This document shows positions 8,084 to 26,941 of a stretch of DNA of 64,000 bases, in pieces (within the stretch, counting starts at the first letter, position 1; every line of letters starts with the position of its first letter). A program made the translations under genes and the position numbers. The stretch spans positions 1 to 64,000 of the forward strand of contig JABLXW010000002.1 in NCBI GenBank assembly GCA_013177945.1, in the 5' to 3' direction. Source of the DNA: Bacillota bacterium (GTDB lineage Bacteria > Bacillota > DSM-12270 > Thermacetogeniales > Thermacetogeniaceae). The notes under the pieces are model-generated. The model did no database searches. It was given only the letters and a program-made list of their open reading frames with translations, and was not told the DNA's origin.

Positions 8084-8161
8084 AAATTTAAAAAATTCAT
8101 ACATAATTACCGGCCTGCTGGAAATATTTATGAGTAAAACCATCTCGTGAGGGCTGATGCG

Positions 8162-8689: not shown

Positions 8690-8716
8690 GCAATGCTGAA
8701 AGAGCCACTTTCTTTT

Positions 8717-8745
8717 CCACCAGGATTTCCCTGGTGGTTTTTGCT
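8717..8745 (+). terminator. Terminator after the BofC-like gene
   Basis: CCACCAGG and CCTGGTGG pair over a 5-base loop, followed by TTTTTGCTTTTT. It marks the end of the core-gene operon and the left edge of the defence island. Confidence 0.85.
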
Positions 8746-9244
8746 TTTTGCGGCCGGAGAAGAAAATTTGCTCCTTTGATAGGGAAGATTCATTGCCCTC
8801 ATGCCTGGTCTCCGTAAAGTTCTTAAGGTGATATTCCCGGACGGCCTCTATTTTCCTATTTCCTTTTCGAGATTCCGGCGAGTATATTCTCCTTGTATTT
8901 AGCGCTTGGCGGTGTGACTGATTAACGATGAGGAGGCTTTGATTGTTGAAGGAAAATTGGCGGAGTTTGCCGAATTTCTACAAAGTTTACAGGTGACGCG
9001 TGCCACGGAGGATAGCGTTGATATCGAAACTGATCCAACTGGCCTATGGAGAAGATGGGCGGATGTTGGGAAACTTGAGAGTTTGTAGGAGTTGCCCCTG
9101 CCGCTCACAGCGGGACCACGAAGGATGAAAAAGGATGAAAAAGGTATTTCGTTACCCTTCATCTTTGGAATGGATTGTGGCGAAGGCGAAGGGACGAATG
9201 TAAAATTCTACAAGGAATGAGGGTTGAAGGGATGGTTTTAAAAG
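8746..9244. other. Intergenic region at the left boundary of the BREX island
   Basis: This stretch of about 500 bases has no long gene. It contains one short ORF (8939-9088), a tandem exact duplication of AGGATGAAAA at 9121-9140, and a weak TATATT box at 8883-8888. I see no inverted terminal repeats, integrase, or tRNA that would mark an integration site. It probably carries the leader and promoter of the defence genes. Confidence 0.5.
8939..9088 (+). CDS. Possible 49-aa ORF upstream of the BREX genes
   Basis: A TTG at 8939 opens a 49-aa frame (begins MIVEGKLAEFAEF, ends WADVGKLESL). GAGGAGG at 8930-8936 lies only 2 bases upstream, too close for an ideal RBS. The product is acidic, with an amphipathic N-terminal half. 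I do not recognise it. It could be a small island protein or the remnant of a longer gene; codon choice looks normal but the evidence is thin. Confidence 0.3.
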   Translation: MIVEGKLAEFAEFLQSLQVTRATEDSVDIETDPTGLWRRWADVGKLESL

Positions 9245-9706
9245 ATGGCAACCCGCAGTTACCGGGATACAGCGTCTTTCGGCAAGCGGCAGGAGTACGT
9301 GGTGATTGCGGAACTCCTGCGCCGGGGATTCGACGTCTACCAGACGCTTGTTGACGACCAGGGCATAGATTGTGTAATCCGCCGCGAGAAGAATGGTATA
9401 CCGGACTACTTGGAAATCCAGGTTAAGGCGCGGTCGAAGGATTGTAACCCGAAAAACGCGGGCCGGTTTGTCCCGTTAGACATCCCGGCCCCCCGCCCTA
9501 ACTATTTTTTCATTTTCTATTCCGAACAGGCCAACGCCTTTTGGGTTGTGCCGTCTATAGAGCTCGTAAAAGTCGCGCGGCAAAATAAAACCGGCCGAAA
9601 TAAAGGCCGCTACAGCATCAACTTTTGTAATATCAGAGCGGATGGTACCGTGGTTCCCCGGCCAGTATTCGATTGCTACAAGAACCGGTTTGACTTGCTC
9701 AAATAA
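9245..9706 (+). CDS. Putative PD-(D/E)XK nuclease-like protein (DUF4365-like)
   Basis: This 153-aa protein has the layout of small restriction-endonuclease-fold proteins: an N-terminal helix (FGKRQEYVVIAELLRRGFDVY), then Asp in DDQGIDCVIRR and the YLEIQVKAR strand, giving a D...ExQxK catalytic pattern like DUF4365 proteins. The C-terminal half is beta-rich (FFIFYSEQANAFWVVPS). It lies 34 bases before brxA in the same direction and is probably part of the same transcript. It may be an accessory nuclease or DNA-binding component of the BREX island; its role is inferred from fold and place. Confidence 0.65.
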   Translation: MATRSYRDTASFGKRQEYVVIAELLRRGFDVYQTLVDDQGIDCVIRREKNGIPDYLEIQVKARSKDCNPKNAGRFVPLDIPAPRPNYFFIFYSEQANAFWVVPSIELVKVARQNKTGRNKGRYSINFCNIRADGTVVPRPVFDCYKNRFDLLK

Positions 9707-9740
9707 CGTTCATATGAGACACCTTTAATCCAGGAGATGG

Positions 9741-10559
9741 GTGCAGTTGAAGAGCGATCACTTATCAGTACGATACTGTAATTCACCCTTTAGGGATACT
9801 TTACCTCATTATTCCGCGCGACATACGTCAGCCGGGGCTCTTGTTAAAGAAGCTCACCTGGTTTTCAAAGCCCTCAGCCAAGGGATGTCGATACCACAAG
9901 TGAGGACCGCGGTGTTAAACGGGAGTCTCATACCCAAGAAATCCTTCGAAACACGCCGGACGATTTGGCGGGCCTTGCACCGCCGCTATTTTGCTAATAT
10001 GCCGCCGTGGGTTGTTACGGAACTTGCAAAAGCGGCTGCGGCAGGCAATCCTTCGACACCCCGCTTTTTGTCCCTGCTCTACCTTCACTTTGCACTGCGT
10101 GACCGGCTCACTTTTGATTTTGTTACCGGCCCACTTTGGGATAAGTGGTACAATGGGTTAACCCACGTAAATCGTGGGGAGGTTTTAATTTTTCTAGATG
10201 CGGCAGGAGAGAAATATCCGGAAATTAAGCGGTGGCGCGAGAGCAGCCGAAATAAAGTAGCGTCAAACGTTCTTTCCTCCCTGAGAGATTTTGGGTTGCT
10301 CCGGGGGGTGCAACAGAAGCACATTCAAAAGCCACCGGTTCCTATCGAAACGGCTTACCATTTGTTCTTAATCCTGACCGCCGAAGGTTTGAAAGGCCGT
10401 ACCGTTCTGGAGGCACCGGCGTGGAAGCTTTTTCTTTGGAGCGAAAGCGATGTCGGTGTTGCCTTCCTTGAGCTCTCCCAACAAGGGCGGCTTCGCTATG
10501 AGCGCGCAGGCCAGACTGTAATACTTGAAGCCAAAGAATTTCCGGTGGATTGGCGGTGA
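9741..10559 (+). CDS. brxA: BREX protein BrxA (DUF1819)
   Basis: This 272-aa protein fits the DUF1819/BrxA family, although that family is often labelled a putative inner membrane protein and this sequence has no clear membrane segment. Recognisable parts are the N-terminal YSARHTSAGALVKEAHLVFKAL, the WRALHRRYF region, and the FGLLRG segment before the C-terminal helices. BrxA is a small DNA-binding protein in type 1 BREX phage defence. CAGGAG at 9731-9736 precedes the GTG at 9741; a TTG at 9747 is an alternative start. It opens the BREX gene order. Confidence 0.82.
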   Translation: MQLKSDHLSVRYCNSPFRDTLPHYSARHTSAGALVKEAHLVFKALSQGMSIPQVRTAVLNGSLIPKKSFETRRTIWRALHRRYFANMPPWVVTELAKAAAAGNPSTPRFLSLLYLHFALRDRLTFDFVTGPLWDKWYNGLTHVNRGEVLIFLDAAGEKYPEIKRWRESSRNKVASNVLSSLRDFGLLRGVQQKHIQKPPVPIETAYHLFLILTAEGLKGRTVLEAPAWKLFLWSESDVGVAFLELSQQGRLRYERAGQTVILEAKEFPVDWR

Positions 10560-10563
10560 AAGC

Positions 10564-11127
10564 TTGATCGACTGGTCCTGGAAGTTGCGGGAGGCATTGG
10601 AACGCATTCGCTCTCATTATGATAACATCGGGCGGAAAACGGGGGCACCTTTTTTGGTAATCGTCTATCCGCCGGAAGCTGAGTTAGCTGTCTTAAGGGA
10701 ATGGCGGGGGCTTTCCGGGACGTTGCAACCGGATTTCGAAGTTAGAAGTGTTGATCTGCTTGCAGTAACTATGGCCGTTGTCGAGGGTCTCGGCGTTCAA
10801 AATATTGTTGCGGCTATTGAGGACCCTATGCCGGGCGCCGATCCGGAAGCTGAACTGGGACGGATGTGGGTGACCGCAGCAGTTTCGGCAGTAAGGGAAG
10901 CGAGCCGCGCGCCGGCCTCCGGGAAATTGGTTATCAGTCTCGAAAGGTTGGCTGCGCTTTACCCCGCTAGTGGCCCGCGGGCGGTAATGCAGGCGTTATG
11001 GGAAAGCGGGCAAAGTACTTTGGACGGGCCCGTGGTGGTCCTCGTGCCGGGGACGTTGAGGGAGGCGCGAACCTACTCGTTTCTAAACAGGCGCGACGAG
11101 TTTATGTACCGGGGTGACATTCTTTAG
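10564..11127 (+). CDS. brxB: BREX protein BrxB (DUF1788)
   Basis: This 187-aa protein resembles BrxB: the segments FLVIVYPPEAELAVLREW, LVISLERLAALYPASGPRAVM and GPVVVLVPGTLREARTYSFLNRRDEF follow the family pattern in order and spacing. BrxB is required for type 1 BREX but its biochemical activity is not settled. The start is uncertain: TTG at 10564 avoids overlap with brxA, whereas an ATG at 10525 would overlap it by 35 bases. It stands between brxA and brxC, the expected position. Confidence 0.8.
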   Translation: MIDWSWKLREALERIRSHYDNIGRKTGAPFLVIVYPPEAELAVLREWRGLSGTLQPDFEVRSVDLLAVTMAVVEGLGVQNIVAAIEDPMPGADPEAELGRMWVTAAVSAVREASRAPASGKLVISLERLAALYPASGPRAVMQALWESGQSTLDGPVVVLVPGTLREARTYSFLNRRDEFMYRGDIL

Positions 11128-11152
11128 TTGATAAATAGGGGCGGGTGGCAGG

Positions 11153-14100
11153 ATGCTGATTAAGGACATTTTTCAAACAAGGGTTGAAGAGAAAATTGAC
11201 CCGGTTATCAAAGTCAGTGAGGTCCAAAACGAAGATAAGCTTGCTTACGAAATTGGGAGTTACGTCGTTACGCCTGCTATCGAACGGTACATAGATGACT
11301 TTTTGGAACACTATACAGATACCTTCTATACTGCCACTACGGAAATCGGTGTTTGGATCTCGGGCTACTTCGGCTCTGGTAAGTCATACCTGGCGAAGAT
11401 TCTAGCCTTACTTGTAGAAAACAGAACCCTTGTGGGACACTCTGCGGCCCAGCGCTTCGAAGCCCGTATTCCGCCGGGTGCGCCGCGCCGGGATTCTATC
11501 CTGCGGAGCCTGGCCCGCCTTGAGCGGTGCTCCTCCCGGGTGTTGGCCTTCAATATTAATACGCTGGCTGATAGCAAAGCCACGCCCCTTCCACGGCTGC
11601 TGCTTTCCCAGTATTACCTTTCCAAAGGGTATAGTTCCAATCTGGTTTACGCCCGGGTAATAGAGGCAGAACTGGACAAACGCGGCCAATTGAGCGAGTT
11701 GCACACGGCCGTGGAAAGGCGGGTGGGGAAGCCCTGGCCGGAGGTTCAGCAGAACCTTAACTTTTACGCCAGGCACCTCTATGCTGCTGCCTGCGAGGTG
11801 GCGCCCGACGTTTTTACCTGCCCGGAGGATGTATTACAGGCTTTGAAAAATGCCGAGAAGGGCGAACTTTACAACGTTCAGTTTTTTGTTCGCACGATTC
11901 TTGAGGATCTTGCGATTACAGAGAAGGCCACAGGAAAGCCTTGCCGTCTGGTGTTGGTGCTGGATGAATCCGGTCAATGGATTGAAGACGACGCTGGGCG
12001 GTTGGCCCAGCTTCAGGCGTTCGTGGAAGAAGCGGCTGAAAAGGGGCAGGGTCGCATCTGGGTTCTCGTTACCACCCATGAAGATATGGCTTCGGTGTAC
12101 GCAAATGCCCGCGCTCTACAGGCGGATATGAAAAAGATGGAGGGCCGCTTCCGGTTTAAATTTGTCCTGACTACCGAGAACATAGAACTCGTACTCGAAG
12201 ACCGGCTTTTGAGGAAAAACCTCCCCGGGCGGGAAGCTTTGGTAGAAGTCTACAACAGTGCTCCCGGCATTATCCGGGACCTGGGCCAATTGCGGATGGA
12301 AGGCAGGCTAATGCCCGAGTGTACCTTAGAAAAATTCGTGGATACCTATCCGTTCTTCCCCTATCAGACCCACCTCATTCCGGAAGTGGTGAAGAGCCTT
12401 CGTACTCAGGGCGGGCGGGGCGAGCAGTTATCTGGTTCTACCCGGACGCTGATCGCTATCACTCAGGATATCCTGCGCACCGGTCGTGGGCGATACCTTG
12501 AAGCTCCGGTGGGACGGGTGGTTTCTTTTGACGAGGTTTATGCCAATCTCGAGGCGGCCGAAATCAACCCCGAGGTCCGGCGGGAGATCCAGCTGATCAC
12601 CACCGACGTTCCGGGGGCCACCCTTCTGACCCGGCGCGTCGCAGAGGTGCTCTACCTTCTTTCAGGCATTACCTATTTACCACGAACTATCGATAACCTG
12701 GCCCGGCTACTCGCTGAATCGGTGGATGACGATATCGCTGCGATTGCGGCGCGGATAAGGCCGGAACTCGAGCGACTCCAGAAGGCAAAAATGGTGGCGC
12801 GCATTGGGGAGGAGTACGAGTTTCTCACCGGCGTTCGCCGCACTTTTGAAGATGAGGTGGCCGCAACGGCCGCGGAACTAAGGCAACCGGACCGGGAGGC
12901 AGGACTCAGGGATTTCGCCACCACCGATGTTCTGGGCTTTGCCACGGTTCCCTATAAAGGTGCCGAGTTTCCTGTGCGGATAACTTTCGACGGTACGCCC
13001 GTAACCAGGGAAGGTTTTGTTGAGGTCCGCGTTGTTTCGCCGCTGGCTGCTCTGGGAGGCATTAAGGTTATTGATCTCGAAGACCAGAGCCTTCGCCCGG
13101 AGGAACAGCAGACGATCTTTATCCTGTGTGACCGTATTCCGGGGTTCGACCAGGACCTCAACCGGTATATCGCGATGCGCGAGGTTATTAAAAACTGGAA
13201 GGGCGATCCGCACAAATCCGATGAAGCACATAGGCTCGCCTCAGACCGGGAGTCCAACGACCTGGAGAAGCTGCGCCGGAGGGTCCAGGACGGCATCCGG
13301 GAGGGGCTGCGACACGCAAGGGTTGTCTTCCGCGGGTCGAGCCGCGCCCTCAACCCCAAGCCGGGCCAGACACCGGGAGAGGCGATTCGCGAGGAATTGG
13401 CTTTGTACTGGCCAACCCTTTACCCGCAATACGACCGGGTGCCGGTCCGGGTCAACCAGGAACAAAAAGCTATTCTTGAAGTTCTTAGCGGCACGAAAAC
13501 GCCCGGTCAAGACATCCGCAACCTCAAGCTCTATGATCAGTCTGGGCAACTCGACCTCCATTGCCCTTTGGTTGATGCCATCAGGCTTTATCTGGCCAAG
13601 CGTCAGAGTACAAAGCAACGAACTCTCGGGAAAGACCTGATTAGTGAGTTTGTTCAGCCGCCCTACGGGTGGGACGGCAACGCAGTCCGCATCGGGGTAG
13701 CCGCGCTGGTACGGGCGGGTGCGGTAAGAATCCTCAGTAATAAGAAGCCGTATACCAACCCAGCCGACCCCGAACTGCAGGATCTTCTGCGGGTTAGCCG
13801 TAACTTTGACAAATGCGAGCTTATTCTGGAGGAAACGGAAGTAGACCCCGATGTGCTGATGGCGGTGCGAACGCTTCTAATCAAGCTTGCCGGCGTCCGT
13901 AAGATTGATGAAACTCCCGCGGCCCTGCACCAGGCGATGGAGCAATTCGGCAGGCAGCTACGATCCCAGGCCGAACGGGTTTTACTCTGGGCGGAGCCGG
14001 CAGGATTTCCCCTGCCAGATGAGTTTAAAAGAGGGGTCGAGGCCATAATCGAAATTTTAGGCCTCGGCAACCCGGTTCACCGTGTCAACGAGATCTTTGC

Positions 14101-14779
14101 CCGGTCGGCAGTTCTCGAGTCAGGCGTTATAGCTATACAGAAACTCGCCACCTTCCAGCAAAAATGGGGCAAGGTCTTCAGTGAGACCAAGGACCTTGCC
14201 GATCAACTCCAGGCAATTGAACACCGCCTGCCGGACACGGGCGTTTTGCGATCCTTCGTCGAGAACTTTATGACCGCGCGGAAAAAGGCTTCCTTTGCCG
14301 AACCCGAGATCTGGAAGGTGATCCAGGACGCGAAGGCTGCTGCCGCGCTGGAGCTTTCCTCTCTTCTTGCCGGGTGGCGTGAAGAGGCGCGGGGAGAGAT
14401 TGAGGCGGCGCTCGTGCGGCTGCCCGAGGAAATTGCGGCCAGGTGCCTTCCCGCAGAGCTGGTGGGGGATCTCAGGCAGCCGCTGGACGAATTTCTGGCG
14501 GCGCTTGATGGAGAAAAGAACCCGGTCCGCGTGGCGGCTTTGCCCGAGCGGGCCCGCCAGTTAATTGCCGAAGCAGGGAGAAGGCTCGATCAAGAAGCAG
14601 GGAAACGGGCAACGGCGCTTGGCGGGACTCCACAGAAGCCGGTCCGGAAAGTACGGGTGGCGGAGGTGGCCGGGATTAGCCGGGTTCGCACCGCAGCAGA
14701 GTGGGCGGCAGCCTTGAAGCGGCTGGATGACCACGTGCGGAAACTCCTTGACGAGGGCAGCGAGGTGGAGTTCTCCTGA
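11153..14779 (+). CDS. brxC: BREX P-loop ATPase BrxC
   Basis: This 1208-aa protein is BrxC, the large ATPase of BREX systems. The Walker A motif GYFGSGKS is at residues 71-78 after the family-typical TEIGVWISG lead, and a Walker B-like strand (RLVLVLDESGQW) lies near residue 265. The long C-terminal part is helical. BrxC is needed for both host methylation and phage exclusion in type 1 BREX. The ATG at 11153 follows GGGGCGGGTGGCAGG. Its stop codon overlaps the ATG of pglX by one base, so the two are tightly coupled. Confidence 0.92.
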   Translation: MLIKDIFQTRVEEKIDPVIKVSEVQNEDKLAYEIGSYVVTPAIERYIDDFLEHYTDTFYTATTEIGVWISGYFGSGKSYLAKILALLVENRTLVGHSAAQRFEARIPPGAPRRDSILRSLARLERCSSRVLAFNINTLADSKATPLPRLLLSQYYLSKGYSSNLVYARVIEAELDKRGQLSELHTAVERRVGKPWPEVQQNLNFYARHLYAAACEVAPDVFTCPEDVLQALKNAEKGELYNVQFFVRTILEDLAITEKATGKPCRLVLVLDESGQWIEDDAGRLAQLQAFVEEAAEKGQGRIWVLVTTHEDMASVYANARALQADMKKMEGRFRFKFVLTTENIELVLEDRLLRKNLPGREALVEVYNSAPGIIRDLGQLRMEGRLMPECTLEKFVDTYPFFPYQTHLIPEVVKSLRTQGGRGEQLSGSTRTLIAITQDILRTGRGRYLEAPVGRVVSFDEVYANLEAAEINPEVRREIQLITTDVPGATLLTRRVAEVLYLLSGITYLPRTIDNLARLLAESVDDDIAAIAARIRPELERLQKAKMVARIGEEYEFLTGVRRTFEDEVAATAAELRQPDREAGLRDFATTDVLGFATVPYKGAEFPVRITFDGTPVTREGFVEVRVVSPLAALGGIKVIDLEDQSLRPEEQQTIFILCDRIPGFDQDLNRYIAMREVIKNWKGDPHKSDEAHRLASDRESNDLEKLRRRVQDGIREGLRHARVVFRGSSRALNPKPGQTPGEAIREELALYWPTLYPQYDRVPVRVNQEQKAILEVLSGTKTPGQDIRNLKLYDQSGQLDLHCPLVDAIRLYLAKRQSTKQRTLGKDLISEFVQPPYGWDGNAVRIGVAALVRAGAVRILSNKKPYTNPADPELQDLLRVSRNFDKCELILEETEVDPDVLMAVRTLLIKLAGVRKIDETPAALHQAMEQFGRQLRSQAERVLLWAEPAGFPLPDEFKRGVEAIIEILGLGNPVHRVNEIFARSAVLESGVIAIQKLATFQQKWGKVFSETKDLADQLQAIEHRLPDTGVLRSFVENFMTARKKASFAEPEIWKVIQDAKAAAALELSSLLAGWREEARGEIEAALVRLPEEIAARCLPAELVGDLRQPLDEFLAALDGEKNPVRVAALPERARQLIAEAGRRLDQEAGKRATALGGTPQKPVRKVRVAEVAGISRVRTAAEWAAALKRLDDHVRKLLDEGSEVEFS

Positions 14780-17700
14780 TGGATCCGAACCTGAAAAAGA
14801 CGCTCCGCGCAATCACGCTGGAGATAAGGCACATTCTCGAAGGATATTTCAACGGGCGCGGGGAATGGCAGCCTGGCGACCTTGAGCGGCGCCTGGCCGC
14901 AATCGGCATCAGGAAGGACCGGCCGCCTGCTCCGGCTGCCGGGCTTTCTCACCTCACGCCGGAGGATAAGGAAGCGCGCCGGGTGGTGGAGGCCTATGTT
15001 GCGGCCAAGGCAGAAGCCGGCGTTTCCCAGGCGCGCGTCGTGGAAGAGTTCCTGCGCGAGTCAGCCTATACCTGGGCCAACCGGCTCCTGGCCCTTCGTT
15101 GTCTCGAAGCCCGGGGAATAATTGACGAAGTGGTTCTGCAAAAGAAGGAATACGGCGGGCGCTCGCTTGAACACTACCGCCTGGTGCGCCGGGCCCCCGA
15201 GCGGTGCGCCGGGGAAGACGAGGGGCTTTATGCCGTCTTGTTTGACGCCTTTGCACGCCTGGCAGAAGAGTTGCCACTGCTCTTTGACCCGGCGGCGCCC
15301 GGGGTGGCTTTGCGCCCATCGGTTGCCGCCCTCCGACGCTGCCTTGCCCTCTTGTCGGGGACGGAGACGGTGCGGGGTTGCGAGCCTGCGGTGGAAGAAA
15401 TCTTCACCGCGCCGGACGCCTTAGGCTGGGCCTACCAGTACTGGAATACCGAAGAAAAGGACCGGATTTTTGAAACCCTTCGCACCCGAAAAGGATTTAA
15501 GATCGAAGGCGCCGACATCATTCTGGTTACCCAGCTTTACACCGAGCCCTATATGGTTAAATTCTTAGTTCAGAACTCGCTCGGTGCCCTCTGGATGGGG
15601 ATGTACCCAAATTCGCGGCTTTATGAAAAGTGGCCTTATTACGTAAAGGAGGCCGACCGGGCTGCGGTTACCAGGAAGCCGATACGGGAGATCACCTTTC
15701 TGGATCCGGCGGTAGGAAGCGGCCACTTCCTGCTCGAAGCCTTCGATCTTTTCTATGCGATGTACCTGGAAGAAGGGGAGATTACGGAGCCGGCGGCCAT
15801 TTGCGCTTCCATCCTCGAGAACAACCTCTACGGCATAGACATTGACGAGCGGGCCGTCCAGATCGCGGCGCTGGCCCTTTATATGAAGGCCAAAGAGAAA
15901 GCGCCGGACTTTGCCCCCCGGCGGGTGAACCTGGTGGCCACCAACATCCGGCTGCCGAAAGGAGAACAGTACCTGGAGGAGTTCCTTGGTACGCTGGAAC
16001 GGGGTTCTGTTATCCTTGAATTCCGGTCTGCATTTGAGAGCATCTTCCGGGCGCTAAGCAGCGCTGCCGAACTCGGAACGCTCGTTCAGATCGAAGAGCA
16101 GTTTGCCGAAGCCCTCGACGCGATCCGCCGGGAGCACGAAAAAGCAATCGGCAGGCCTCCGGGCAGCCTGCGGCATGACCCCTGGTGGCAGAAGTTACAC
16201 GCGGATGCCCTCGGACGTTTTCGCGCGTATATAGAGAAGGAGATCATCGCTGACGACCTCTCTGCCCGCTTCTTCGGTGCAGCAGCCGCCAAAGGGCTGA
16301 CCCTTTTCGATCTTCTCTCCCGCCGCTATGACGTGGTGGCAACCAATCCTCCCTATATGGGGAGCAAGAACATGGGGCCGTTGCTCAAGGAGTATCTACA
16401 GAAAAACTACGCGCCCGGCAAGCGCGACCTCTACGCCGCCTTCATCCTCCGCTGCCTGCAACTGGCTGCTGAAGGCGGCCGGGTGGCCATGGTCACCCAG
16501 CAGTCCTGGATGTTCCTGCGCTCCTTTGCCGACTTACGGGCCTTGGACGATGAGAAGCTGAAGAAGGGGCCAAAAGGCGATTTCCCGGGTCTTTTGCGCG
16601 CCACCACCATCGAGACGCTGGCGCATCTGGGTGAACACGCCTTTGATGATAGTTCGGCGGCAGGTGCATTTGTTGTGCTTTTTGTTCTTGCCAAAACCCC
16701 GCCTGCGCCGGAGCACCGCCTCACAGCCTTCCGCCTGGTGGGACCGAAGAGCGCGGCGGAGAAGGACGAGTTGCTGCAAACAGGGACAGCGGGGCAAGGA
16801 GACGTCAGTAGAACGAAACAAAGCGGCTTCTTGGCAATACCAAATACCCCCATAGTCTTTTGGTTAGGGGAGAGAATTTTTCAAATTTTGAAAGCAAGGC
16901 CTTTAATAGAAGATGTAGCTGAGGTAAAACAAGGCTTAGCCACAGCCGACGACAACAGATTTTTACGCTACTTTTGGGAGTGTCCATCTTGCAATGCTCA
17001 TAGATGGTTTCCTTTCTGCAAAGGGGGAGGTTTTTCTAAATGGTTTGGGCTTAATCTATTTTCCATCCGATGGGATTATGGTGGTTCTGTACTTCGTAAC
17101 GTAAAAAGTGCGGTCATTCGCAATCCCGAATACTACTTTCGTCAGGGTTATACATATACAGGCACTGCTCGTGGTTCTTTTGCCTTACGTTATATTGATG
17201 GTAATGCAATCTTTGGTCATAGAGGACCGATGATATTTGTTATTGATAATATCCATGAAAATACTATATTCTGTATCGGCAACTCGCGTGTAGTGACTTA
17301 TTTGCTTCGAGCTATTAGTCCTTCTCTTTGCTTTGAAGTTAGTCAAGTAAATAGGGTACCAATTCTTTTTTCTATCTCTAATGATTGGGGAATTTCACAG
17401 TTTTGCCTTAATATGAAACAGAAGATAGTTTCTCTATCACTCTGCGAACGAAGTTTTAGTCAACCAGATACCTACCTCTACGGGGACTGTAGATCATGTT
17501 TTGGAAGTTTTAAAATGTATCTGTCTGATTTTGAAAGGTATCTAGGTGCAGTTTCTTCTTTGCTTCATACTGCCGAAGGCTTGAACGAACTTTATGTAAT
17601 GAAGCTGTACGATGTTTTTACTGACAACTCCTTGCAGTCCATTCTCGCCGAAACCGGTACTCCCGCCGGTTGGTTTCCGCTAATCGCCGGTTACGATGCC

Positions 17701-19455
17701 CTGCCGGAGTTGCCGGAGGGTCTGCCGGAGATTCCGCCGGAAGTGATCGAATACCTTAAAAACCACGAGCGCCGCACACTGACGCCGGAGGAACTGACAG
17801 ACTTGAAGCGGCGGTTGCGGGCGCTTTACGAAGCCGGGCCGGGCGCTAAAGTGGAGGAAGAAGAACCCTTTGATGACGACGAAGCTGTTAGCGAAGACAA
17901 TGAAGACGAGGAAAACAAGGTTGTCCTGGGCGCCCGCATCCCCATTCCCACCGAAACGTTCCTGGAAGAACTCTCCGTCAAGCTGGAGATCCACCCGATT
18001 TCGGTATATTGGCTCCTGAAGGAATTGCGGGAAAAAGAAGGCGTGGTTTGCCTCCCGGAGTTGCGCCGCTACACCACGGATTACTTCACGGTGATGATCC
18101 TGCGTCTTTTGGGCCACCGCTGGCCGAAGCAAATCGAGGCCGGGGAGCCGGTGCCGGAGTGGGCCGAGCCAGACGGCATCATTCCGCTCACCGAAGGCGC
18201 GGGTAAGCCCACGCTCATCGAACGGGTGCGAGAGCGGATCGCTGCCGACTTTGGGGAAGAACGCGTCTCGGCCATCGAGCGGGAATTCGCGGAGATTATG
18301 GGTAAGCCCTTAGAAGAATGGCTGGCTAAAGACTTCTTTAAGCACCACACCTCCCAGTTCAAGAAGCGCCCCATCGCCTGGCAGATTGAAAGCCGGCCCA
18401 ACAACAACGAAAAAGTGATGCGCAGCAGGCGCAAAGGACTTTCTCTCAACCGTACCCCGGCCTTTTCCTGCCTGGTTTACTACCACGCACTCGGTGCCGA
18501 TCTCCTCCCTAAGCTCTGCAGCCAGTACGTCGGCCCCTTGCGCCTGCGCCTCGAAACGGAGCTCCACAACCTGGAGCGGGTGGAGAGGCGGACGCCCGAC
18601 CAGGAGGGACGGCGACTTCTCTTGGAACGCCAGATCGAAGAGCTGAAGGCTTTCGAGCAAAAGCTGCAGGCGGTCGCGGCAGAAGGTTTCACTACCCCTT
18701 CGCTCAGCCGGGTAGTTACGGATGACGCCCTTCAATCTTTGACCCGCGCCTACCTTGCGCGGGCATCGGAGGCAGCCGGGGCAGTGCTGCCGGAATGGAA
18801 GGAAGAGGCGCGCGCGATCAGCAGCGAACTGGCAGAGCCGCTGGAGGAGGCAATAACCTGCCTTGCGTACCACTGCGCAAAAGTGGCGCCTCAGATGAAA
18901 GTGAACCCGTCGGATCCACTGCCTGATGCAAACGCCTTAAGAGAAACGGTATTTAAGGAACGGGAGAGAATCATTAAGGATGCCCTGGCGCTGGCCTATA
19001 CCGCTTGGGAGAAAGCGTTCAAACAATGGAAGACCCAGCGGCGTAAAGAGGCTAAGGAAGCGGGATTGAAGCCGCCCCGCTTTGATGACCAGGACCGTCT
19101 AGCCGCCCGACTGGCGCGTAAGATGACCGGTTGGCTACCGCCTGACCTGGACACCTGGCGAGAGTGGGGGCTCTCCCTGCCGATTTACGATGAGTTCTGC
19201 CGCCTGACCGAACACGCTACCACCCCGGCGGCACCGGCTGAATTCTTGGCGCAGGAGCGGCGCTACGCCCCGGATATTAACGACGGTGTACGGGTGAATA
19301 TCGCACCGCTGCAGAAAGCCGGGTTGCTGGCATCGGAGGTCCTGCCCGCCAAAGACCAGGACAAGGCCATCGCCGACCGCGCTGTCTGGCGGGCCGACGA
19401 ACGCCGCTGGTGCCGCGAAGGCAAACTTCCCCGCCCCGGCTGGTGGCCGGTATAA
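14779..19455 (+). CDS. pglX: BREX adenine-specific DNA methyltransferase PglX
   Basis: This 1558-aa protein is a PglX methyltransferase. The SAM-binding motif I (DPAVGSGHFLLEAF) is near residue 308 and the catalytic motif IV TNPPYMG near residue 522, both typical of N6-adenine enzymes. PglX marks host DNA at a non-palindromic site so that BREX spares it. The target-recognition part, about residues 685-955 (bases 16830-17640), is AT-rich and unlike both flanks. An acidic linker (EEEEPFDDDEAVSEDNEDEEN) follows near residue 1032. The C-terminal third (about 1150-1558) has PglX-type helical regions. It is intact, with no frameshift. Confidence 0.92.
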   Translation: MDPNLKKTLRAITLEIRHILEGYFNGRGEWQPGDLERRLAAIGIRKDRPPAPAAGLSHLTPEDKEARRVVEAYVAAKAEAGVSQARVVEEFLRESAYTWANRLLALRCLEARGIIDEVVLQKKEYGGRSLEHYRLVRRAPERCAGEDEGLYAVLFDAFARLAEELPLLFDPAAPGVALRPSVAALRRCLALLSGTETVRGCEPAVEEIFTAPDALGWAYQYWNTEEKDRIFETLRTRKGFKIEGADIILVTQLYTEPYMVKFLVQNSLGALWMGMYPNSRLYEKWPYYVKEADRAAVTRKPIREITFLDPAVGSGHFLLEAFDLFYAMYLEEGEITEPAAICASILENNLYGIDIDERAVQIAALALYMKAKEKAPDFAPRRVNLVATNIRLPKGEQYLEEFLGTLERGSVILEFRSAFESIFRALSSAAELGTLVQIEEQFAEALDAIRREHEKAIGRPPGSLRHDPWWQKLHADALGRFRAYIEKEIIADDLSARFFGAAAAKGLTLFDLLSRRYDVVATNPPYMGSKNMGPLLKEYLQKNYAPGKRDLYAAFILRCLQLAAEGGRVAMVTQQSWMFLRSFADLRALDDEKLKKGPKGDFPGLLRATTIETLAHLGEHAFDDSSAAGAFVVLFVLAKTPPAPEHRLTAFRLVGPKSAAEKDELLQTGTAGQGDVSRTKQSGFLAIPNTPIVFWLGERIFQILKARPLIEDVAEVKQGLATADDNRFLRYFWECPSCNAHRWFPFCKGGGFSKWFGLNLFSIRWDYGGSVLRNVKSAVIRNPEYYFRQGYTYTGTARGSFALRYIDGNAIFGHRGPMIFVIDNIHENTIFCIGNSRVVTYLLRAISPSLCFEVSQVNRVPILFSISNDWGISQFCLNMKQKIVSLSLCERSFSQPDTYLYGDCRSCFGSFKMYLSDFERYLGAVSSLLHTAEGLNELYVMKLYDVFTDNSLQSILAETGTPAGWFPLIAGYDALPELPEGLPEIPPEVIEYLKNHERRTLTPEELTDLKRRLRALYEAGPGAKVEEEEPFDDDEAVSEDNEDEENKVVLGARIPIPTETFLEELSVKLEIHPISVYWLLKELREKEGVVCLPELRRYTTDYFTVMILRLLGHRWPKQIEAGEPVPEWAEPDGIIPLTEGAGKPTLIERVRERIAADFGEERVSAIEREFAEIMGKPLEEWLAKDFFKHHTSQFKKRPIAWQIESRPNNNEKVMRSRRKGLSLNRTPAFSCLVYYHALGADLLPKLCSQYVGPLRLRLETELHNLERVERRTPDQEGRRLLLERQIEELKAFEQKLQAVAAEGFTTPSLSRVVTDDALQSLTRAYLARASEAAGAVLPEWKEEARAISSELAEPLEEAITCLAYHCAKVAPQMKVNPSDPLPDANALRETVFKERERIIKDALALAYTAWEKAFKQWKTQRRKEAKEAGLKPPRFDDQDRLAARLARKMTGWLPPDLDTWREWGLSLPIYDEFCRLTEHATTPAAPAEFLAQERRYAPDINDGVRVNIAPLQKAGLLASEVLPAKDQDKAIADRAVWRADERRWCREGKLPRPGWWPV
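16830..17640. other. AT-rich specificity segment inside pglX
   Basis: Two hand-counted 60-base lines in this segment (16861 and 17281) give about 35-40% G+C, while the lines on either side within the same gene are near 60%. The encoded stretch follows the catalytic domain and contains Cys/Trp/Tyr-rich peptide (for example CPSCNAHRWFPFC), where the target-recognition domain of PglX is expected. The reading frame is continuous through both edges, so it looks like a swapped cassette. Confidence 0.7.
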
Positions 19456-19474
19456 AAAAAAGGGAGGTAGTATT

Positions 19475-22297
19475 ATGGGTTCCTACTCAAGTGATTATCG
19501 CGGTGCACGCTTTTATAAGTGTGACCTGCATATGCATACGCCTGTAGATCTATCACATTGGTCAAGTCCGCCTTTGGAATCATTTAAGGATGAGCAGGAG
19601 GCTGCTGAGGTCTATATTAAATGCTGTTACGAAGCCGGATTAGAAGTGATAGGAATCACGGATCACAATTTTGCGTCGAAGAATTTTATCCCTTTGCTAT
19701 ATAAAGCGATTGAAAAGCTTAAGCCTGAGTTCGGCTACAAAATAACTGTTTTTCCAGGCTTCGAATTCATGGCTGACGTGGGCAGAGGGTGCCACATACT
19801 TGTACTTATGTCGCCGGACTGCGATCTTGACACCATCGATCATTTGCTTACCCAATGCGGTGTTCCTTATCCGCGATTTGACGGCCATAGGCCTCATGCA
19901 TCGACTAAGCGATTACCCGAAATTTTGGAGATCATACAGCGCAAAGCTGATAATGGTCAACTGCAGGGTATTGTGATTTGCCCTCATTCCCAAAGCGATG
20001 CAGGTATTTTCGATAATGATAGAATTGCTGATTGGCTGCAACGGGAGGAGTTCATAAATCCAGAGCTTCTGTGCATAGAGGTTCCGAGACCTCCTTCGGA
20101 AATGTCCAGCGGCTGGCAGCGGTTACTTCGTGCGGGGACAGATTGTGATCCGGCATGGAGAAGGACGCGCCCAATAGCATGCATTATGTCATCTGATGCT
20201 AAAGGATTACAAGTAAGTGATTGTGCCGAAAACTATATTGGGTACCGATATACGTGGATTAAAATGAGTAACCCCTCAATAGAAGCTCTCCGGCAGGCTT
20301 TCTTAGACCACGGGTCGCGTATTCAGTTCGGGCCTACACGTCCTGAAGACCAGTATACTCATCCGAAGGTCCGCCGGATCATCGTTCGCGGGGCAAAGTT
20401 TTTGGGGGATCAGGAGGTCGAGTTCAGTCATAACCTTAATACCTTGATTGGTGGCCGTGGCAGCGGCAAATCTACTTTGATCGAATATCTAAGGATCGCT
20501 CTGAATAAAGGTGAGCCAACTGGTGAAGAAGCAAAAAAGAACTTTGAGAAACTTCGGGAAACCATTACAGATGACACCCTTATCCGTATCTCTTTGGAAA
20601 AAGACGGTCAGGAGTGGATACTTGAATCAAAAGGAGGCAATCTTCCCGAGGTCGCCGAGGGTTCACCTGTTCCCGATATAGCCAGATTCTTTCCAGTACG
20701 TATTTTCAGTCAGCGGGAAATCTATTCAATTTCTGAGGATCGCTTCGCTCGCACCCAACTGATTGATGAACATGAACTTGCCCGATCTGAGTTGAGCAAA
20801 CTTAAGCGAGAGGCCGAGGAGATTGTTACTGAAATTAGGCAGCTTAGTCAGCAAATTGTGTCTCAACTTGCCATAGAGGAGCAAGAGAGGATACTCAAAA
20901 CTGAACTTCTCGAATTACAGGTTCGCCTAGAAAGTCTTAAGAAACTGGAGGAGCCTCTTGCTCAATGGAAGGGTTTCCTTGTTGAGGAAAAATTGTTCGA
21001 AGAAATCAAGACACATACATCGGATGTTACAAATGTACTTCGGCAGGCTTCAGAACAGATAGCAACAGTTGCCCAGGCTATCAGCAGTGATTTGCCAGAA
21101 ACTCCTAACAAGGACTTGGTTGGTAACATAGTTAGAGATGTTAGTTTGCATATCGAAAAATTACACAGTTCCGTTGGTAGTGTACTTAAAGATTTCGAAA
21201 GTAACATTAATGCCATTTTGTACGGCCAGTCGGTACAGGAGTGGAGAAAAAAATACGAAGCTGCCCAGATGGGGTACAATGAGTTGCGGCAACAACTGAC
21301 TGAGTTTGGGGCAGACCCGGACCAGTATCTGAATTACCAGAAGGAACTCCGGGAGAAGGAAGACGAACTAAAAAGTCTTCAGAAACGGCTCGAAGAAGTA
21401 AAAAGTGCGCGTGACCGATTGGAGAAGAAGATTGCTGAGCTTCAGGAGATATGGAAGAAAGAAACGGAAATACGTATTAATGTTGCCAAACAGCTAATGG
21501 GAAAAGTACCAAAAACCCGCAACAACCAGCCGTTTGTCACAATTGTAATCGAGCCTTTCGGCGATGATAGAGCGTTTCTTGAAAAGATGAAGCCTTTTCT
21601 GAAAGATCGCCGTAGAATTAGCGATGAAGAGTGGGACGGGTTCGTCTGGGAAGTATTCAGGGCGAGTCGAACTGCCGATTCTCCTAAACTACCTACAGAA
21701 ATACTGCGTTCCTGGGTTGAGGCGCTTCGGGAAGGGAAGGAAGTTCCGGGATGCCCTTGGAGTAGCCGGGATCGCAAAGTACAGGCGCTTCTAGAATGGA
21801 TGAATCATGAGACTCTTACCAACCTCAGGATGGAGCGGATACCCGACAGGGTCCGAATAAAGCTATATCGCCAGGATGGTTCTGAGGTTGGTGAATTAGA
21901 GGAAGGTCTGTCGGTTGGACAACGGTGTACAGCTATTCTGGCGCTTCTTTTGGCGGCGGATAATGTGCCGGCGATTATCGACCAACCTGAGGACGATTTA
22001 GATAACGAATTTGTTTACCGGGAACTTGTTCCCATGCTAAGGGAACTCTCCGGTAAGAATTCAGGTGGAGCTACAGTTAGTAGAAGCCAGCGTCAGATCA
22101 TCGTGGCAACTCATAACGCCAACATACCTGTTAATGCTGATGCCGAATTAATTATTGCCCTCGAAGCACGTAATAATCGTGGAATAATTAGGGCACTTGG
22201 AGCGTTGGATCAGGTGTCAGTAAGTGACGCTGTAAAGGAAATTATGGAAGGCAGCGAAGATGCCTTTCGGAAGCGGTTTGAAAAATATGGGTTCTAG
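19475..22297 (+). CDS. PHP-domain/ABC-type ATPase (TrlF-like) embedded in the BREX operon
   Basis: This 940-aa protein joins an N-terminal PHP phosphoesterase domain (residues 14-290) to an SMC/RecF-like ATPase. PHP metal ligands are visible: H19xH21, D63-H64, E97, H107, H171 and D241, although the last motif reads SDAK instead of the usual SDAH. Walker A GGRGSGKS is at 326-333, coiled coil runs about 430-690, then the ABC signature (LSVGQR, about 810), Walker B with IIDQPEDDLD (about 833) and H-loop ATHNAN (about 876). It resembles TrlF-family ATPases. GGGAGG precedes the ATG. Its G+C is lower than the surrounding BREX genes. A DNA- or nucleotide-targeting effector role is inferred. Confidence 0.8.
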   Translation: MGSYSSDYRGARFYKCDLHMHTPVDLSHWSSPPLESFKDEQEAAEVYIKCCYEAGLEVIGITDHNFASKNFIPLLYKAIEKLKPEFGYKITVFPGFEFMADVGRGCHILVLMSPDCDLDTIDHLLTQCGVPYPRFDGHRPHASTKRLPEILEIIQRKADNGQLQGIVICPHSQSDAGIFDNDRIADWLQREEFINPELLCIEVPRPPSEMSSGWQRLLRAGTDCDPAWRRTRPIACIMSSDAKGLQVSDCAENYIGYRYTWIKMSNPSIEALRQAFLDHGSRIQFGPTRPEDQYTHPKVRRIIVRGAKFLGDQEVEFSHNLNTLIGGRGSGKSTLIEYLRIALNKGEPTGEEAKKNFEKLRETITDDTLIRISLEKDGQEWILESKGGNLPEVAEGSPVPDIARFFPVRIFSQREIYSISEDRFARTQLIDEHELARSELSKLKREAEEIVTEIRQLSQQIVSQLAIEEQERILKTELLELQVRLESLKKLEEPLAQWKGFLVEEKLFEEIKTHTSDVTNVLRQASEQIATVAQAISSDLPETPNKDLVGNIVRDVSLHIEKLHSSVGSVLKDFESNINAILYGQSVQEWRKKYEAAQMGYNELRQQLTEFGADPDQYLNYQKELREKEDELKSLQKRLEEVKSARDRLEKKIAELQEIWKKETEIRINVAKQLMGKVPKTRNNQPFVTIVIEPFGDDRAFLEKMKPFLKDRRRISDEEWDGFVWEVFRASRTADSPKLPTEILRSWVEALREGKEVPGCPWSSRDRKVQALLEWMNHETLTNLRMERIPDRVRIKLYRQDGSEVGELEEGLSVGQRCTAILALLLAADNVPAIIDQPEDDLDNEFVYRELVPMLRELSGKNSGGATVSRSQRQIIVATHNANIPVNADAELIIALEARNNRGIIRALGALDQVSVSDAVKEIMEGSEDAFRKRFEKYGF

Positions 22298-22318
22298 AAT
22301 TAATCAGGGGTGTTCCCA

Positions 22319-24823
22319 GTGACAGCAGCTCTAACGTTCCGTGAGTGGCTCCGCAGCGAGATTATGCGGGTGTTGAATAAAAAGGTTACTCCGCCGCCCT
22401 TTGTTATCTGGTGCGACCCCCAGAGGGAGTGGCGGGAATTGCTTGTAGCGGCTGCCGAGGGTACCTTTGAGCTCTGGGCGGACGAAGAGCACGAACTTAT
22501 CATCCGCGGCCGGTTCTACACCGAGCCAAGAGTGCCGCGGGTGGTATGGCTGCCCAAGAGCCGGGGAGAGGTTACTTACTTCGAAGTTTTTGCTCTTGAG
22601 GCCACCGAAATACGCGAGATAAGCCTGCTTAGCGCTTTAGCGGAATTCGGGGTAGAGATACCCCGAGATCAGGAGACAGGCATACGTTCCTTTTTACCCG
22701 CTCACGTAAGAGAGTGGGTGGACATGCCTCTTCTACACTGGAAGGAGAACCTATCCAGCAGCGGGGTTAAAGAAACTCTGGTGGACGACGACCTCGTACT
22801 AAAGGTGTTAGCCCATTATGGGGCTCCCTTTGACGATTTCCTTGACGGTTATCGTTACCCCGTATTTGTGCGCCGCGTGCAGGAGGACTTCGGCTTGCCT
22901 GCTCCAACAGAAGATGCCGATAGTTGGAGGATTCGGGCTGTGGCGCGGCTTCTTTGTACGGAAGCGGCGCATCGGGTACCGGCAAGCCCACCGGGGGAAG
23001 ATGACCGGATAATTGAAGCCGGGCCTGCCCGGGAGCGGGCGCTAAAACTCCTGGAACGCTGGCGGAACCATGTCGAGTATATGGATTCCTTCGAGGAGAT
23101 ATCGATTAAGGCCGATGGGACAACATCGCTTGCCTACTGGGCCGAGCGGTTGAGCCTTTCTCCCGGACCACTGTCGTCTCACGCTGTGGAAGAAACGCTT
23201 TTCCGAAGAGAAATAAATCTTCTTGCTTCGAAAGAAGATTTTCAGGAACTGGCGCAGTATTTGGAGGAGAAACTCCCTTACTATCTTGCCCATGCGGAAT
23301 CATTCTGGAGCAGCCGGGCTAAGCGCAAAGTGGGATGGGCCGAGCTTGCGGTTTTGGCAAAGACGGCCAGCCTGCTTTTAGAACAGTCGAATATCGAGAA
23401 GGAATGGCAAACACCAGGGGACGCCGTGAACTGGTACAAGACCGTTGGCTGGCAGGTTGATCAAGCGGGAGAGGTTTTATTCAGGGAAGCGTCGGACTTC
23501 GACGGCGGGCTCGTATCCGTCCGGGACCGGTTGCGCCGGGCATACCTCCGTCACCTGGATCGTGTAGGGACCGCCTTTTCGGAGCTTCTTGCCCGGCACG
23601 GCGACGCCGGATTTGGCTTACCTTATGCCGGCGAGCTTCTCCTTCCTCTCCTTCAACAGAAGGATCCGACGGCGGTTGTGGTACTCGATGCCTTGCGGTA
23701 TGATCTGGGTTGTGCTTTGGCTGCGGCGCTCAATCGCGGCGAGCCGGCACTACGGGCGGAGGTTCTACCGGCACGCGCACCGGTACCTTCAATTACCGCA
23801 CTCGGAATGCCTTTTGCCCTTCCGGTAAACCCCAAGCTTATTCACATCAGCATCGAGCCTGGAAAGGCACCGATTCCCTGGAAGGTTACCGTTAATGGTT
23901 TTGAAGGGGACCTCACGATTGCTGAAAAACGCCATGACTGGTTGCGTGCTAACTTTAAACTTAAAGAAAAAGCTTTTCTTACTATGTCGCAGGTTTTTAA
24001 CCCTGAACCGCCTGGACCGAAGGAGGTCGGCCGCCTCGTCTTTGTCTTCGGGGACAGTTTTGATACGGAAGGCCATGAAGGGCGCTTACAGACCTTTGGG
24101 GTAGAGGAGTACGTTGAACGATACGCAAGAGCCATCCGACGGTTGCGTTCTATCGGTTTTAATACGGTGATTATCGTGACAGACCATGGCTTCTTTCACT
24201 GGGAGCCGGAGAAGGACGAAATAGAGAGTAAACCTACGGGGGAGGCTCTCTGGACTTCCCGCCGGGCAGTCGTAGGATATGGTCTTAGACATTCGTCTGC
24301 CGTCCGGCTGCCGGTGCCAGGGAGCGATCTTGAATGCCTGGTTCCCCGGAGTATAAATGCCTTCAAGACTTATGGAGGGCTGGGTTTCTTCCACGGGGGC
24401 GCCACCCTGCAGGAACTCATTATCCCTGTTGTTATTGTACGATGGCCGAAGAAGGGCAAGAAAGTAGCGGCTGTTCTTAAATCCGTTGCCGAAGTCACCT
24501 CGCTTGCACCGCGTTTTACTGTATCGCCCGGCGGTGTGGAGTACCACCGCAATCTGTTCGGTGAACCGGATTCAAATCTGCTTGCTCGCCGAGTAATGGT
24601 CAAAATTGTGGACCCTGGCAGTGGCAAGGTTCTTTTCAAGGCCGAAACTGTCTGTACTTTAGAACCTGGTGGAGAGGCACAGGTTGTAGAATTAAGACCG
24701 GTAGGGGGGGCGACGGCGGCTTTTGGTTCAAAAGTGTATGTCCAGGTAATAGACGCCGATGATGAAGAAATCCTCGATCAACATGAGGTGGTATTGAAAG
24801 TAGAAATGGATGAGTGGCTATAG
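22319..24823 (+). CDS. pglZ: BREX alkaline-phosphatase-like protein PglZ
   Basis: This 834-aa protein is PglZ. The alkaline-phosphatase-fold metal-binding motifs are seen as VVVLDALRYDLG (about residue 456) and IIVTDHGFFHWE (about 621), preceded by a helical N-terminal half and followed by a beta-rich C-terminal domain. PglZ is essential in BREX and acts on phosphoester or nuclease substrates in a metal-dependent way. GTG at 22319 follows AGGGG at 22306-22310 by 8 bases; a GTG at 22310 is the alternative. It is separated from the PHP-ATPase by about 20 bases. Confidence 0.9.
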   Translation: MTAALTFREWLRSEIMRVLNKKVTPPPFVIWCDPQREWRELLVAAAEGTFELWADEEHELIIRGRFYTEPRVPRVVWLPKSRGEVTYFEVFALEATEIREISLLSALAEFGVEIPRDQETGIRSFLPAHVREWVDMPLLHWKENLSSSGVKETLVDDDLVLKVLAHYGAPFDDFLDGYRYPVFVRRVQEDFGLPAPTEDADSWRIRAVARLLCTEAAHRVPASPPGEDDRIIEAGPARERALKLLERWRNHVEYMDSFEEISIKADGTTSLAYWAERLSLSPGPLSSHAVEETLFRREINLLASKEDFQELAQYLEEKLPYYLAHAESFWSSRAKRKVGWAELAVLAKTASLLLEQSNIEKEWQTPGDAVNWYKTVGWQVDQAGEVLFREASDFDGGLVSVRDRLRRAYLRHLDRVGTAFSELLARHGDAGFGLPYAGELLLPLLQQKDPTAVVVLDALRYDLGCALAAALNRGEPALRAEVLPARAPVPSITALGMPFALPVNPKLIHISIEPGKAPIPWKVTVNGFEGDLTIAEKRHDWLRANFKLKEKAFLTMSQVFNPEPPGPKEVGRLVFVFGDSFDTEGHEGRLQTFGVEEYVERYARAIRRLRSIGFNTVIIVTDHGFFHWEPEKDEIESKPTGEALWTSRRAVVGYGLRHSSAVRLPVPGSDLECLVPRSINAFKTYGGLGFFHGGATLQELIIPVVIVRWPKKGKKVAAVLKSVAEVTSLAPRFTVSPGGVEYHRNLFGEPDSNLLARRVMVKIVDPGSGKVLFKAETVCTLEPGGEAQVVELRPVGGATAAFGSKVYVQVIDADDEEILDQHEVVLKVEMDEWL

Positions 24824-24836
24824 GGGAGAGGTTAAG

Positions 24837-26900
24837 ATGATTCCGGATCAGATTGACCTGAAACTGGCCGGTGCTTTTGCCGGACGTGTTGTACGCAAGG
24901 ACCTGGTAAGAAAACTTAAGGTAGGCTTTAACGTCCCCGTTTATGTATTGGAATATCTCTTAGGAAAATACTGCTCTTCAACCGATGAAAAAGAAATTAA
25001 AGCCGGGTTGCAACATGTGAAGAGCGCTATCTCCGAACGCATTGTGCGGGGTGACCAGGTGGAACTGGTTAAGTCACGGCTGCAACGGCAGGGATCTTTA
25101 AAGCTCATAGATCTCGTAACAGTCACTTTTGACGAAAAAGATCAAGCAGGGAAATACTGGGCGCGTCTTGCCACATGCGGTTTAGACTGGATCCACATTG
25201 ACGCTGATGTAGTCCACCGGCACGAGCGGCTCTTAACCGGCGGTATTTGGTGTAACGTGGAGCTGGTTTACGACGATTCGATTGTTCACCGGGGAGTGAC
25301 TCGTCCATTTGTTTTGCAACGCTTAGCGCCGATTCAGGTTGCCAGTGCTAACTTTGAGGAGTTCGTGGAAGGACGCACTCAGTTTTCGCGCGACGAATGG
25401 ATTGATGTCCTGCTGCGAACAATGGGATATGAGCCGACTCATCCAGACTTTACTCACCGACGAAAGCTGCTTTTTCTTCTTCGTCTCGTGCCGATGGTCG
25501 AAAAGAACTATAACCTGATCGAGTTGGGGCCCCGGGGGACCGGAAAGTCGTATGTTTATCGCGAGATTTCCCCGTATGTTATCTTATTGAGCGGCGGACA
25601 GGGAACTGTTCCCGATCTTTTCGGGTGGAAAGGTCGCAAGGATAAGCCCGGGCTGGTGATTAAGTATGATGCTGTCGCTTTTGATGAGGTGGCGGGCTCG
25701 AACTTCCGCTCAGATAGTGATAAGCAAATGTACAAGGGTTATATGGAGCAGGGCTCATTTTCGCGGGGTGACGATAAAGGCACTCTTTCTGCAGACGCCG
25801 GCATTATCTTTAACGGTAATCTCGACGGCGATGTGGAAACAACGGCCAGAGTCTCTCATCTCTTCGTGGCACTACCGGAAGCCATCCGGAATGATATGGC
25901 CTTTCATGACCGGTGGCATGCTTATCTCCCGGGTTGGGAAATGCCTAAGATGCAGCCCGATTATTTTACTACTCATTTAGGCTTTGTTGCTGATTACATC
26001 GCCGAAATCTTCCATAACGAATTACGTCGGCGAAACTACACCGATCTTTATGACCGCTGGTTCCGTCTGGGCAGCCATGTAGAGGAACGCGACCGGAAGG
26101 CCATAGTGCGGACAGTGTCGGGCTTGATCAAACTACTCCATCCGGATGGCCGGTGCGAAAAGCAAGAATTGGAGGAATACCTGGCTTTCGCCATCGAGCA
26201 CCGCCGGCGTGTGAAGGAGCAACTCAAGCGAATGGGCGGCATCGAGTACGCAAAGGTAAACCTTTCTTACATTGATAAAGAGACAGGTCAGGAGACCTTT
26301 GTTGCCTGTAAGGAATTGAGTTCCGGCCAGATGATTCCCGAAGGCCCCCTGGCACCGGGAGACGTATTTACTGTTGGCTTTGATCCTGATGAGGGCCGGT
26401 ATTCTCTCTACCGGATCCAGGTTTCGGCTACACCAGGCCCCAACCGGTTTCTTGTTATGGGGAATACTTCTCGGTCCATCAAAGAGTCGGCCCGGATGGC
26501 TTATGATTATCTGCGGGCGAATATTACCAAAATTGGTATTGACCGTGACCTGTCGAGTTATGACATTAATATCCAGGTTATGAGCCTGATGCAAGGCAAA
26601 GATGCCCGCGACCTCGGTGTTGCCTTTTACGTAGCCCTCATCTCAGCCATCCTCGGACGCCCTATTGCTGCCCAACTTGTAGTGTTAGGACAGATGAGCA
26701 TCCACGGGGTGCTCAGCCGCGTGGAAGGACTCGCTGACAAGCTTCGCATCGCTATGGATGCCGGTGCCCAGCGGGTGATTATCCCTACGGAAAACCGGCG
26801 GGACTTTGCTGAACTGCCAGTAGAAGTGATTGACAAGCTGCAGATAGATTTTTACAGCGAGCCGAACCAGGCTGTGTTCAAGGCTTTAGCGGATGTGTAA
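24837..26900 (+). CDS. brxL: BREX AAA+ protein BrxL (Lon-like)
   Basis: This 687-aa protein is BrxL, an AAA+ ATPase that acts as the restriction factor of type 1 BREX. Walker A GPRGTGKS is near residue 231 and Walker B VAFDEVAG near 282. The C-terminal part resembles the Lon protease domain (ILGRPIAAQLVVLGQMSIHG, RVIIPTENRRDF), but where Lon has the catalytic Ser of GPSAG this protein has KDARD, and where Lon has the catalytic Lys of GGLKEK it has EGLADK, so proteolysis looks unlikely. GGGGAGAGG precedes the ATG. This is the last gene of the island. Confidence 0.92.
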   Translation: MIPDQIDLKLAGAFAGRVVRKDLVRKLKVGFNVPVYVLEYLLGKYCSSTDEKEIKAGLQHVKSAISERIVRGDQVELVKSRLQRQGSLKLIDLVTVTFDEKDQAGKYWARLATCGLDWIHIDADVVHRHERLLTGGIWCNVELVYDDSIVHRGVTRPFVLQRLAPIQVASANFEEFVEGRTQFSRDEWIDVLLRTMGYEPTHPDFTHRRKLLFLLRLVPMVEKNYNLIELGPRGTGKSYVYREISPYVILLSGGQGTVPDLFGWKGRKDKPGLVIKYDAVAFDEVAGSNFRSDSDKQMYKGYMEQGSFSRGDDKGTLSADAGIIFNGNLDGDVETTARVSHLFVALPEAIRNDMAFHDRWHAYLPGWEMPKMQPDYFTTHLGFVADYIAEIFHNELRRRNYTDLYDRWFRLGSHVEERDRKAIVRTVSGLIKLLHPDGRCEKQELEEYLAFAIEHRRRVKEQLKRMGGIEYAKVNLSYIDKETGQETFVACKELSSGQMIPEGPLAPGDVFTVGFDPDEGRYSLYRIQVSATPGPNRFLVMGNTSRSIKESARMAYDYLRANITKIGIDRDLSSYDINIQVMSLMQGKDARDLGVAFYVALISAILGRPIAAQLVVLGQMSIHGVLSRVEGLADKLRIAMDAGAQRVIIPTENRRDFAELPVEVIDKLQIDFYSEPNQAVFKALADV

Positions 26901-26914
26901 GTCTATGTTAACGT

Positions 26915-26941
26915 TTGCACCCAGCGAAAGTCTGATATAAT
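26915..26941 (+). promoter_or_regulatory. Promoter of the capA-like/polA operon
   Basis: TTTGCAC around 26914-26920 and a consensus TATAAT at 26936-26941 lie 15-16 bp apart, about 32 bases before the capA-like gene. It restarts transcription after the BREX island. Confidence 0.6.

Follow-up and report, generated by a model that had tools for sequence, protein, structure and literature searches.

The AT-rich middle of pglX in the window, the 64,000-nucleotide stretch of Bacillota DNA analyzed here, encodes, by alignment and structural modeling, the target-recognition domain (TRD) and first spacer helix of a BREX methyltransferase, and it is highly probable that this part was acquired as a cassette from some other pglX whose history differs. 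Four independent lines agree on exchange: the composition break within the gene, the decoupling of TRD and flank similarity among 25 relatives, a two-copy locus in Candidatus Chloroploca asiatica (L013), and a set of Escherichia coli alleles. The original prediction had proposed a swap between pglX genes, and it holds for location, composition, and type of event; cassette exchange is well supported in relatives, whereas donor and date in this genome can only be inferred.

A composition trough over the recognition domain of pglX

A complete type 1 BREX cluster occupies positions 9741-26900 on the forward strand, with all six genes (brxA, brxB, brxC, pglX, pglZ, and brxL) in that order by PADLOC and Pfam; brxB is the weakest member (Table 1). 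The low-G+C gene for a Ppl-like ATPase between pglX and pglZ is probably an inserted accessory defense gene. The pglX frame is open throughout, as had been noted, and its product is a PglX/BrxX protein by Pfam, PDB sequence match, and fold match, with a SAM motif and NPPY in an N6-methyltransferase domain followed by a TRD, spacer helices, and a C-terminal domain.

Low G+C within the gene had been described from two hand-counted lines, and it is seen along the whole segment: 300-base windows from 16800 to 17700 have a G+C content of 0.36-0.43, compared to 0.56-0.65 on either side within pglX, and third-position G+C (GC3) is 0.33 in codons 690-960 compared to 0.70 before and 0.71 after. A maximum-likelihood fit with two breakpoints placed them at codons 686 and 948 (log-likelihood gain 75.6; support ranges 666-700 on the left and 930-950 on the right), with GC3 falling from 0.71 to 0.29. 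The fitted block, 16834-17622, almost exactly reproduces the 16830-17640 originally proposed.

It could be argued that the low G+C reflects the amino acid composition a TRD requires and not its origin, and PglX TRDs are indeed mostly AT-rich. However, G+C at fourfold-degenerate sites (GC4) drops equally, to 0.30 in the segment compared to 0.74 in the flanks, so amino acid composition is not the cause of the trough. Additionally, GC4 reaches 0.75-0.88 in some TRDs. We regard this explanation as refuted, with a negligible probability.

We looked for intragenic troughs of this kind in 1.63 Mb, or ~60%, of the same genome, covering 395 genes with 400 codons or more. The pglX trough ranked first, the next two scoring 40.8 and 38.3, and all three belong to DNA methyltransferases. 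In the second and third (L125 and L116), the trough lies at what we take, by the known motif order of such enzymes, to be the expected TRD site. AT-rich intragenic troughs of lower rank were also seen in flagellar genes of this genome, namely, flgK (L118:182-1633), fliD (L160:17799-19370), and flgE (L143:10845-12107).

The composition break coincides with the TRD, the domain to which the segment had been assigned. Residues 89-863 of the window PglX align with residues 78-835 of E. coli BrxX (PDB sequence match), and the AT-rich segment aligns to residues ~647-837, compared to a TRD at 651-837 by cryo-EM and a hinge at 638-675 (PMC11842806). The TRD of Salmonella PglX spans residues 662-849 and is followed by two spacer helices at 850-960 (PMC11341690). 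An AlphaFold model of residues 600-1330 (mean pLDDT, 73) has a mostly beta TRD up to residue ~845 and then helices at 871-884 and 911-943, and a fold search with this model gave best PDB matches that were all BrxX/PglX (9ewz, 8q56, and 8c45). Alignment, published TRD boundaries, and model thus identify the segment as the TRD plus first spacer helix. The changepoints coincide with the hinge and the end of that helix, the second lying about ten codons ahead of a conserved PAGWFPLI turn.

Table 1. Features of the BREX locus, its pglX gene, and related genes
Feature	Position	Strand	Basis or remark
brxA	9741..10559	+	Pfam BrxA, E 4e-24
brxB	10525..11127	+	PADLOC BrxB, E 6e-6
brxC	11153..14779	+	PADLOC BrxC, E 3e-126
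pglX (brxX), BREX type 1 adenine methyltransferase and specificity factor, 1558 aa	14779..19455	+	one open frame (1558 codons); PADLOC PglX, E 1e-160; PDB BrxX/PglX, E 1e-77
N-terminal helical region and methyltransferase domain, residues 1-667, GC3 0.70	14779..16779	+	Pfam Eco57I, N6_Mtase; composition
SAM-binding motif I, DPAVGSGHF	15703..15729	+	read from sequence
Catalytic motif IV NPPY, residues 523-526	16345..16356	+	read from sequence
Methyltransferase/TRD hinge, left joint; in split relatives the M gene ends and the S gene begins here	16780..16833	+	M/S half alignment; E. coli BrxX hinge 638-675 (PMC11842806)
AT-rich cassette: TRD (residues ~686-865) and first long spacer helix (to ~948), GC3 0.29	16834..17622	+	changepoint fit; AlphaFold model; decoupled similarity
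Right joint, conserved ETGTPAGWFPLIAGYD, residues 958-973, from which point relatives are similar again	17650..17697	+	alignment; Chloroploca copies switch at same point
C-terminal domain (second spacer helix, C-terminal helices), GC3 ~0.71	17650..19452	+	composition; AlphaFold model
Ppl-like ATPase gene, GC 0.46	19475..22297	+	PADLOC Ppl, E 4e-58; GC
pglZ	22310..24823	+	PADLOC, Pfam
brxL	24810..26900	+	PADLOC BrxL, E 5e-258
PglXI-like methyltransferase, sharp AT-rich trough just before DPPF motif	L125:7501-10146	-	same genome as window
Type III methyltransferase, sharp AT-rich trough between DPPY and SAM motif	L116:7626-10196	-	same genome as window
Split pglX, L017 and L020			PDC-M28 genes between halves
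Split pglX, L023			PDC-M28 gene between halves, probably, by position and size
Split pglX, L022			IrrE-type gene between halves
Split pglX, L031			unidentified frames between halves
pglX, L065 and L069 (two Bacillota genomes)			M and S genes overlap

Two further features of the protein are recorded here. Prediction of the methylated motif from TRD residues was set aside, since the residue equivalent to Salmonella position 838 is a cysteine (C851), which the published rules do not cover. Just before the TRD, residues 620-640 (~16636-16698) include a loop, HAFDDSSAAGAF, which occurs in similar form in L003, L041, L015, and L031, and other relatives carry AFxEISGEVVN at this place; the loop may co-vary with the TRD.

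TRD exchange among relatives

Conserved flanks around a divergent center, the pattern proposed as a check on exchange, were found across phyla, within E. coli, and within one Chloroploca locus. For 25 relatives from many phyla, we compared pairwise identities of the methyltransferase, TRD, and C-terminal domain by Mantel tests. Methyltransferase and C-terminal identities were correlated (rho 0.58, p 0.0005), whereas TRD identity followed neither flank (rho 0.00 with the methyltransferase and -0.01 with the C terminus), and the median TRD identity was 0.30 both for pairs with a methyltransferase identity above 0.6 and for those below 0.45. This decoupling is not due to saturation, because L017 and L023 share 0.92 and 0.80 identity in the two flanks and yet only 0.42 in the TRD.

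Two cases place the exchange between close genes, at joints equivalent to those of the window gene. The Chloroploca locus has a full pglX (9986-14332) and, 1.5 kb downstream, a second gene consisting only of a TRD and C-terminal domain (15795-18131). The 3' parts of the two copies are 97.3% identical over 1,563 bases and their TRDs are 33% identical, with the switch at PAGFHPLI, the same motif at which the window gene also changes. With such a spare specificity half, a single BREX locus may have two targets. Among nine E. coli pglX alleles, nucleotide identity is 0.93-1.0 along most of each flank and ~0.46-0.50 in the center; the block exchanged here is wider, covering E. coli residues ~520-970, and the left crossover is therefore not fixed. 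In E. coli ESBL 15 (L098), the annotation gives pglX as frameshifted, with the BREX locus otherwise present. With unrelated TRDs between conserved flanks in close genes of E. coli, Chloroploca, and the L017/L023 pair, exchange of the TRD as a cassette is well supported in the family.

For the window gene itself, we propose that homologous recombination in conserved sequence, in the methyltransferase/hinge region on one side and the PAGWFPLI/second-helix region on the other, replaced the TRD in this lineage. The incoming TRD would have changed the methylated 6-base motif. In BREX, one PglX both marks self and recognizes unmarked DNA. Since the same protein serves both ends, restriction specificity would have followed the methylation change at once.

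The closest TRD we found is ~41% identical (L013S). A donor search covering phages, plasmids, and 398 genomes from this phylum returned only distant PglX proteins, none above ~38% identity across a portion of the TRD; there was no match in viral contigs, and two searched genomes of the same genus had no match to PglX. For this genome, the donor and the timing of the exchange are thus matters of inference.

Alternatively, pglX could be a locally switching gene, with silent TRD cassettes and a recombinase, and phase variation of pglX has been reported (PMC11341690). However, the window's genome (a 99.96% complete assembly) has no second TRD copy, partial or otherwise, and positions 8000-28000 have no inverted repeats of note around pglX, which makes local switching extremely unlikely. 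The hallmark of domain movement, two TRD positions with flanking repeats, is likewise absent from the gene, which has one TRD and no such repeats.

AT bias of TRDs across the family

It had been suggested that the same composition and similarity along the whole gene in close relatives would speak against a recent swap. An AT-rich TRD is common to most relatives, and similarity is not uniform along the gene. We compared GC4 of TRDs and flanks in 50 full-length pglX genes, many from metagenome-assembled genomes; the counts treat relatives as independent. TRD GC4 was below that of the flanks in 43 of the 50 (median difference -0.17, Wilcoxon p 2.6e-11). The TRD was AT-richer by more than 0.1 in 33; none was GC-richer by 0.1, or even by more than 0.05. 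Since AT-rich TRDs are this common, AT-richness alone is a weak mark of a recent event in this lineage.

The one-sided bias is unexpected under random host-to-host exchange, which should yield some GC-richer TRDs; the alternatives are a mostly AT-rich set of donors or an additional drift of TRDs toward AT. It raises the question of where TRDs come from, and it also favors a rival explanation in which the window TRD was never imported but evolved rapidly in place, under weak codon selection, drifting to AT equilibrium for lack of partners for GC-raising gene conversion. That TRD GC4 still follows flank GC4 (slope 0.55, r 0.62) fits this explanation as well; the corresponding GC3 regression of C terminus on methyltransferase has a slope of 1.05 and an r of 0.96. 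Drift in place, however, cannot yield the sharp-edged block replacements beside near-identical flanks in L013 and the E. coli alleles. The spread of TRD composition under GC-rich flanks (>0.6) also speaks against it: in 22 such genes, TRD GC4 is below 0.4 in 12 and matches the flanks in 4, all from GC-rich hosts (L012, L066, L067, and L072). Import with later amelioration accounts for such a spread better than a fixed requirement does. We therefore consider drift in place improbable, and import of the cassette remains our preferred explanation.

Split pglX genes and known systems

Several phyla include relatives whose pglX is split at the hinge, with other intact genes, often accessory ones, between the halves except in the two Bacillota genomes whose M and S genes overlap (Table 1). 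The M gene stops after residue ~667 of the window protein (IGPKSPEEKDRLLRQ), and the S gene starts at ~671-676 (KQSDFLAIPESP). A limited literature search gave no description of this arrangement, and short PglX models already exist in PADLOC. Specialists may find novelty in the measured decoupling of TRD from flanks, in the one-sided AT bias, and in the natural split into M and S genes. It is possible, and we offer this only tentatively, that PglX is an enzyme of two parts and that its specificity half travels alone, as a separate HsdS-like gene in several BREX loci and sometimes as a spare, and that an AT-rich cross-phylum pool, independent of host lineage, supplies the TRDs of PglX and of other methyltransferases.

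If TRDs do move freely between PglX proteins, one recombination shifts both the self-marking and the attacked motif, and a BREX locus can switch motifs with no stage of attacking its own chromosome. In our test set, TRD similarity was uninformative about the lineage of the remaining enzyme. The recurrent split at the same joint also suggests a cut-and-rejoin point for building hybrid PglX proteins.

The window protein has the order of methyltransferase, hinge, TRD, spacer helices, and C-terminal domain known from type 1 BREX PglX/BrxX of E. coli HS and Salmonella (PDB 9ewz, 8c45, and 8q56), in which the TRD determines a 6-bp motif (PMC11341690 and PMC11842806). It differs in length (1,558 aa compared to ~1,205-1,225 aa) and is only distantly similar in sequence, a plasmid-borne E. 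coli PglX being 28% identical over the matched part. A defining activity of PglX/BrxX enzymes is adenine methylation at a non-palindromic 6-bp motif. An earlier study noted that the recognition region of pglX diverges between E. coli HS and Salmonella (PMC9009780).

The proposed event would be an instance of TRD exchange, which is well known in Type I, IIG, and III restriction-modification genes, where divergent TRDs likewise sit between conserved flanks and are swapped by recombination within conserved parts, with a change of specificity (Furuta et al. 2011, PMC3077401; 2014, PMC3983042). The window gene differs from those in having a single TRD in a BREX methyltransferase, without flanking repeats or movement between TRD1 and TRD2. 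HsdS of Type I systems has a TRD and paired spacer helices, as PglX does (PMC11341690), and the split relatives resemble separate M and S genes, whereas in the window the TRD and methyltransferase form a single protein. Type IIL enzymes such as MmeI likewise join one TRD to a gamma-class N6-methyltransferase. In these enzymes, a change of TRD alters marking and restriction together. Unlike them, PglX has no nuclease domain and requires the other BREX proteins.
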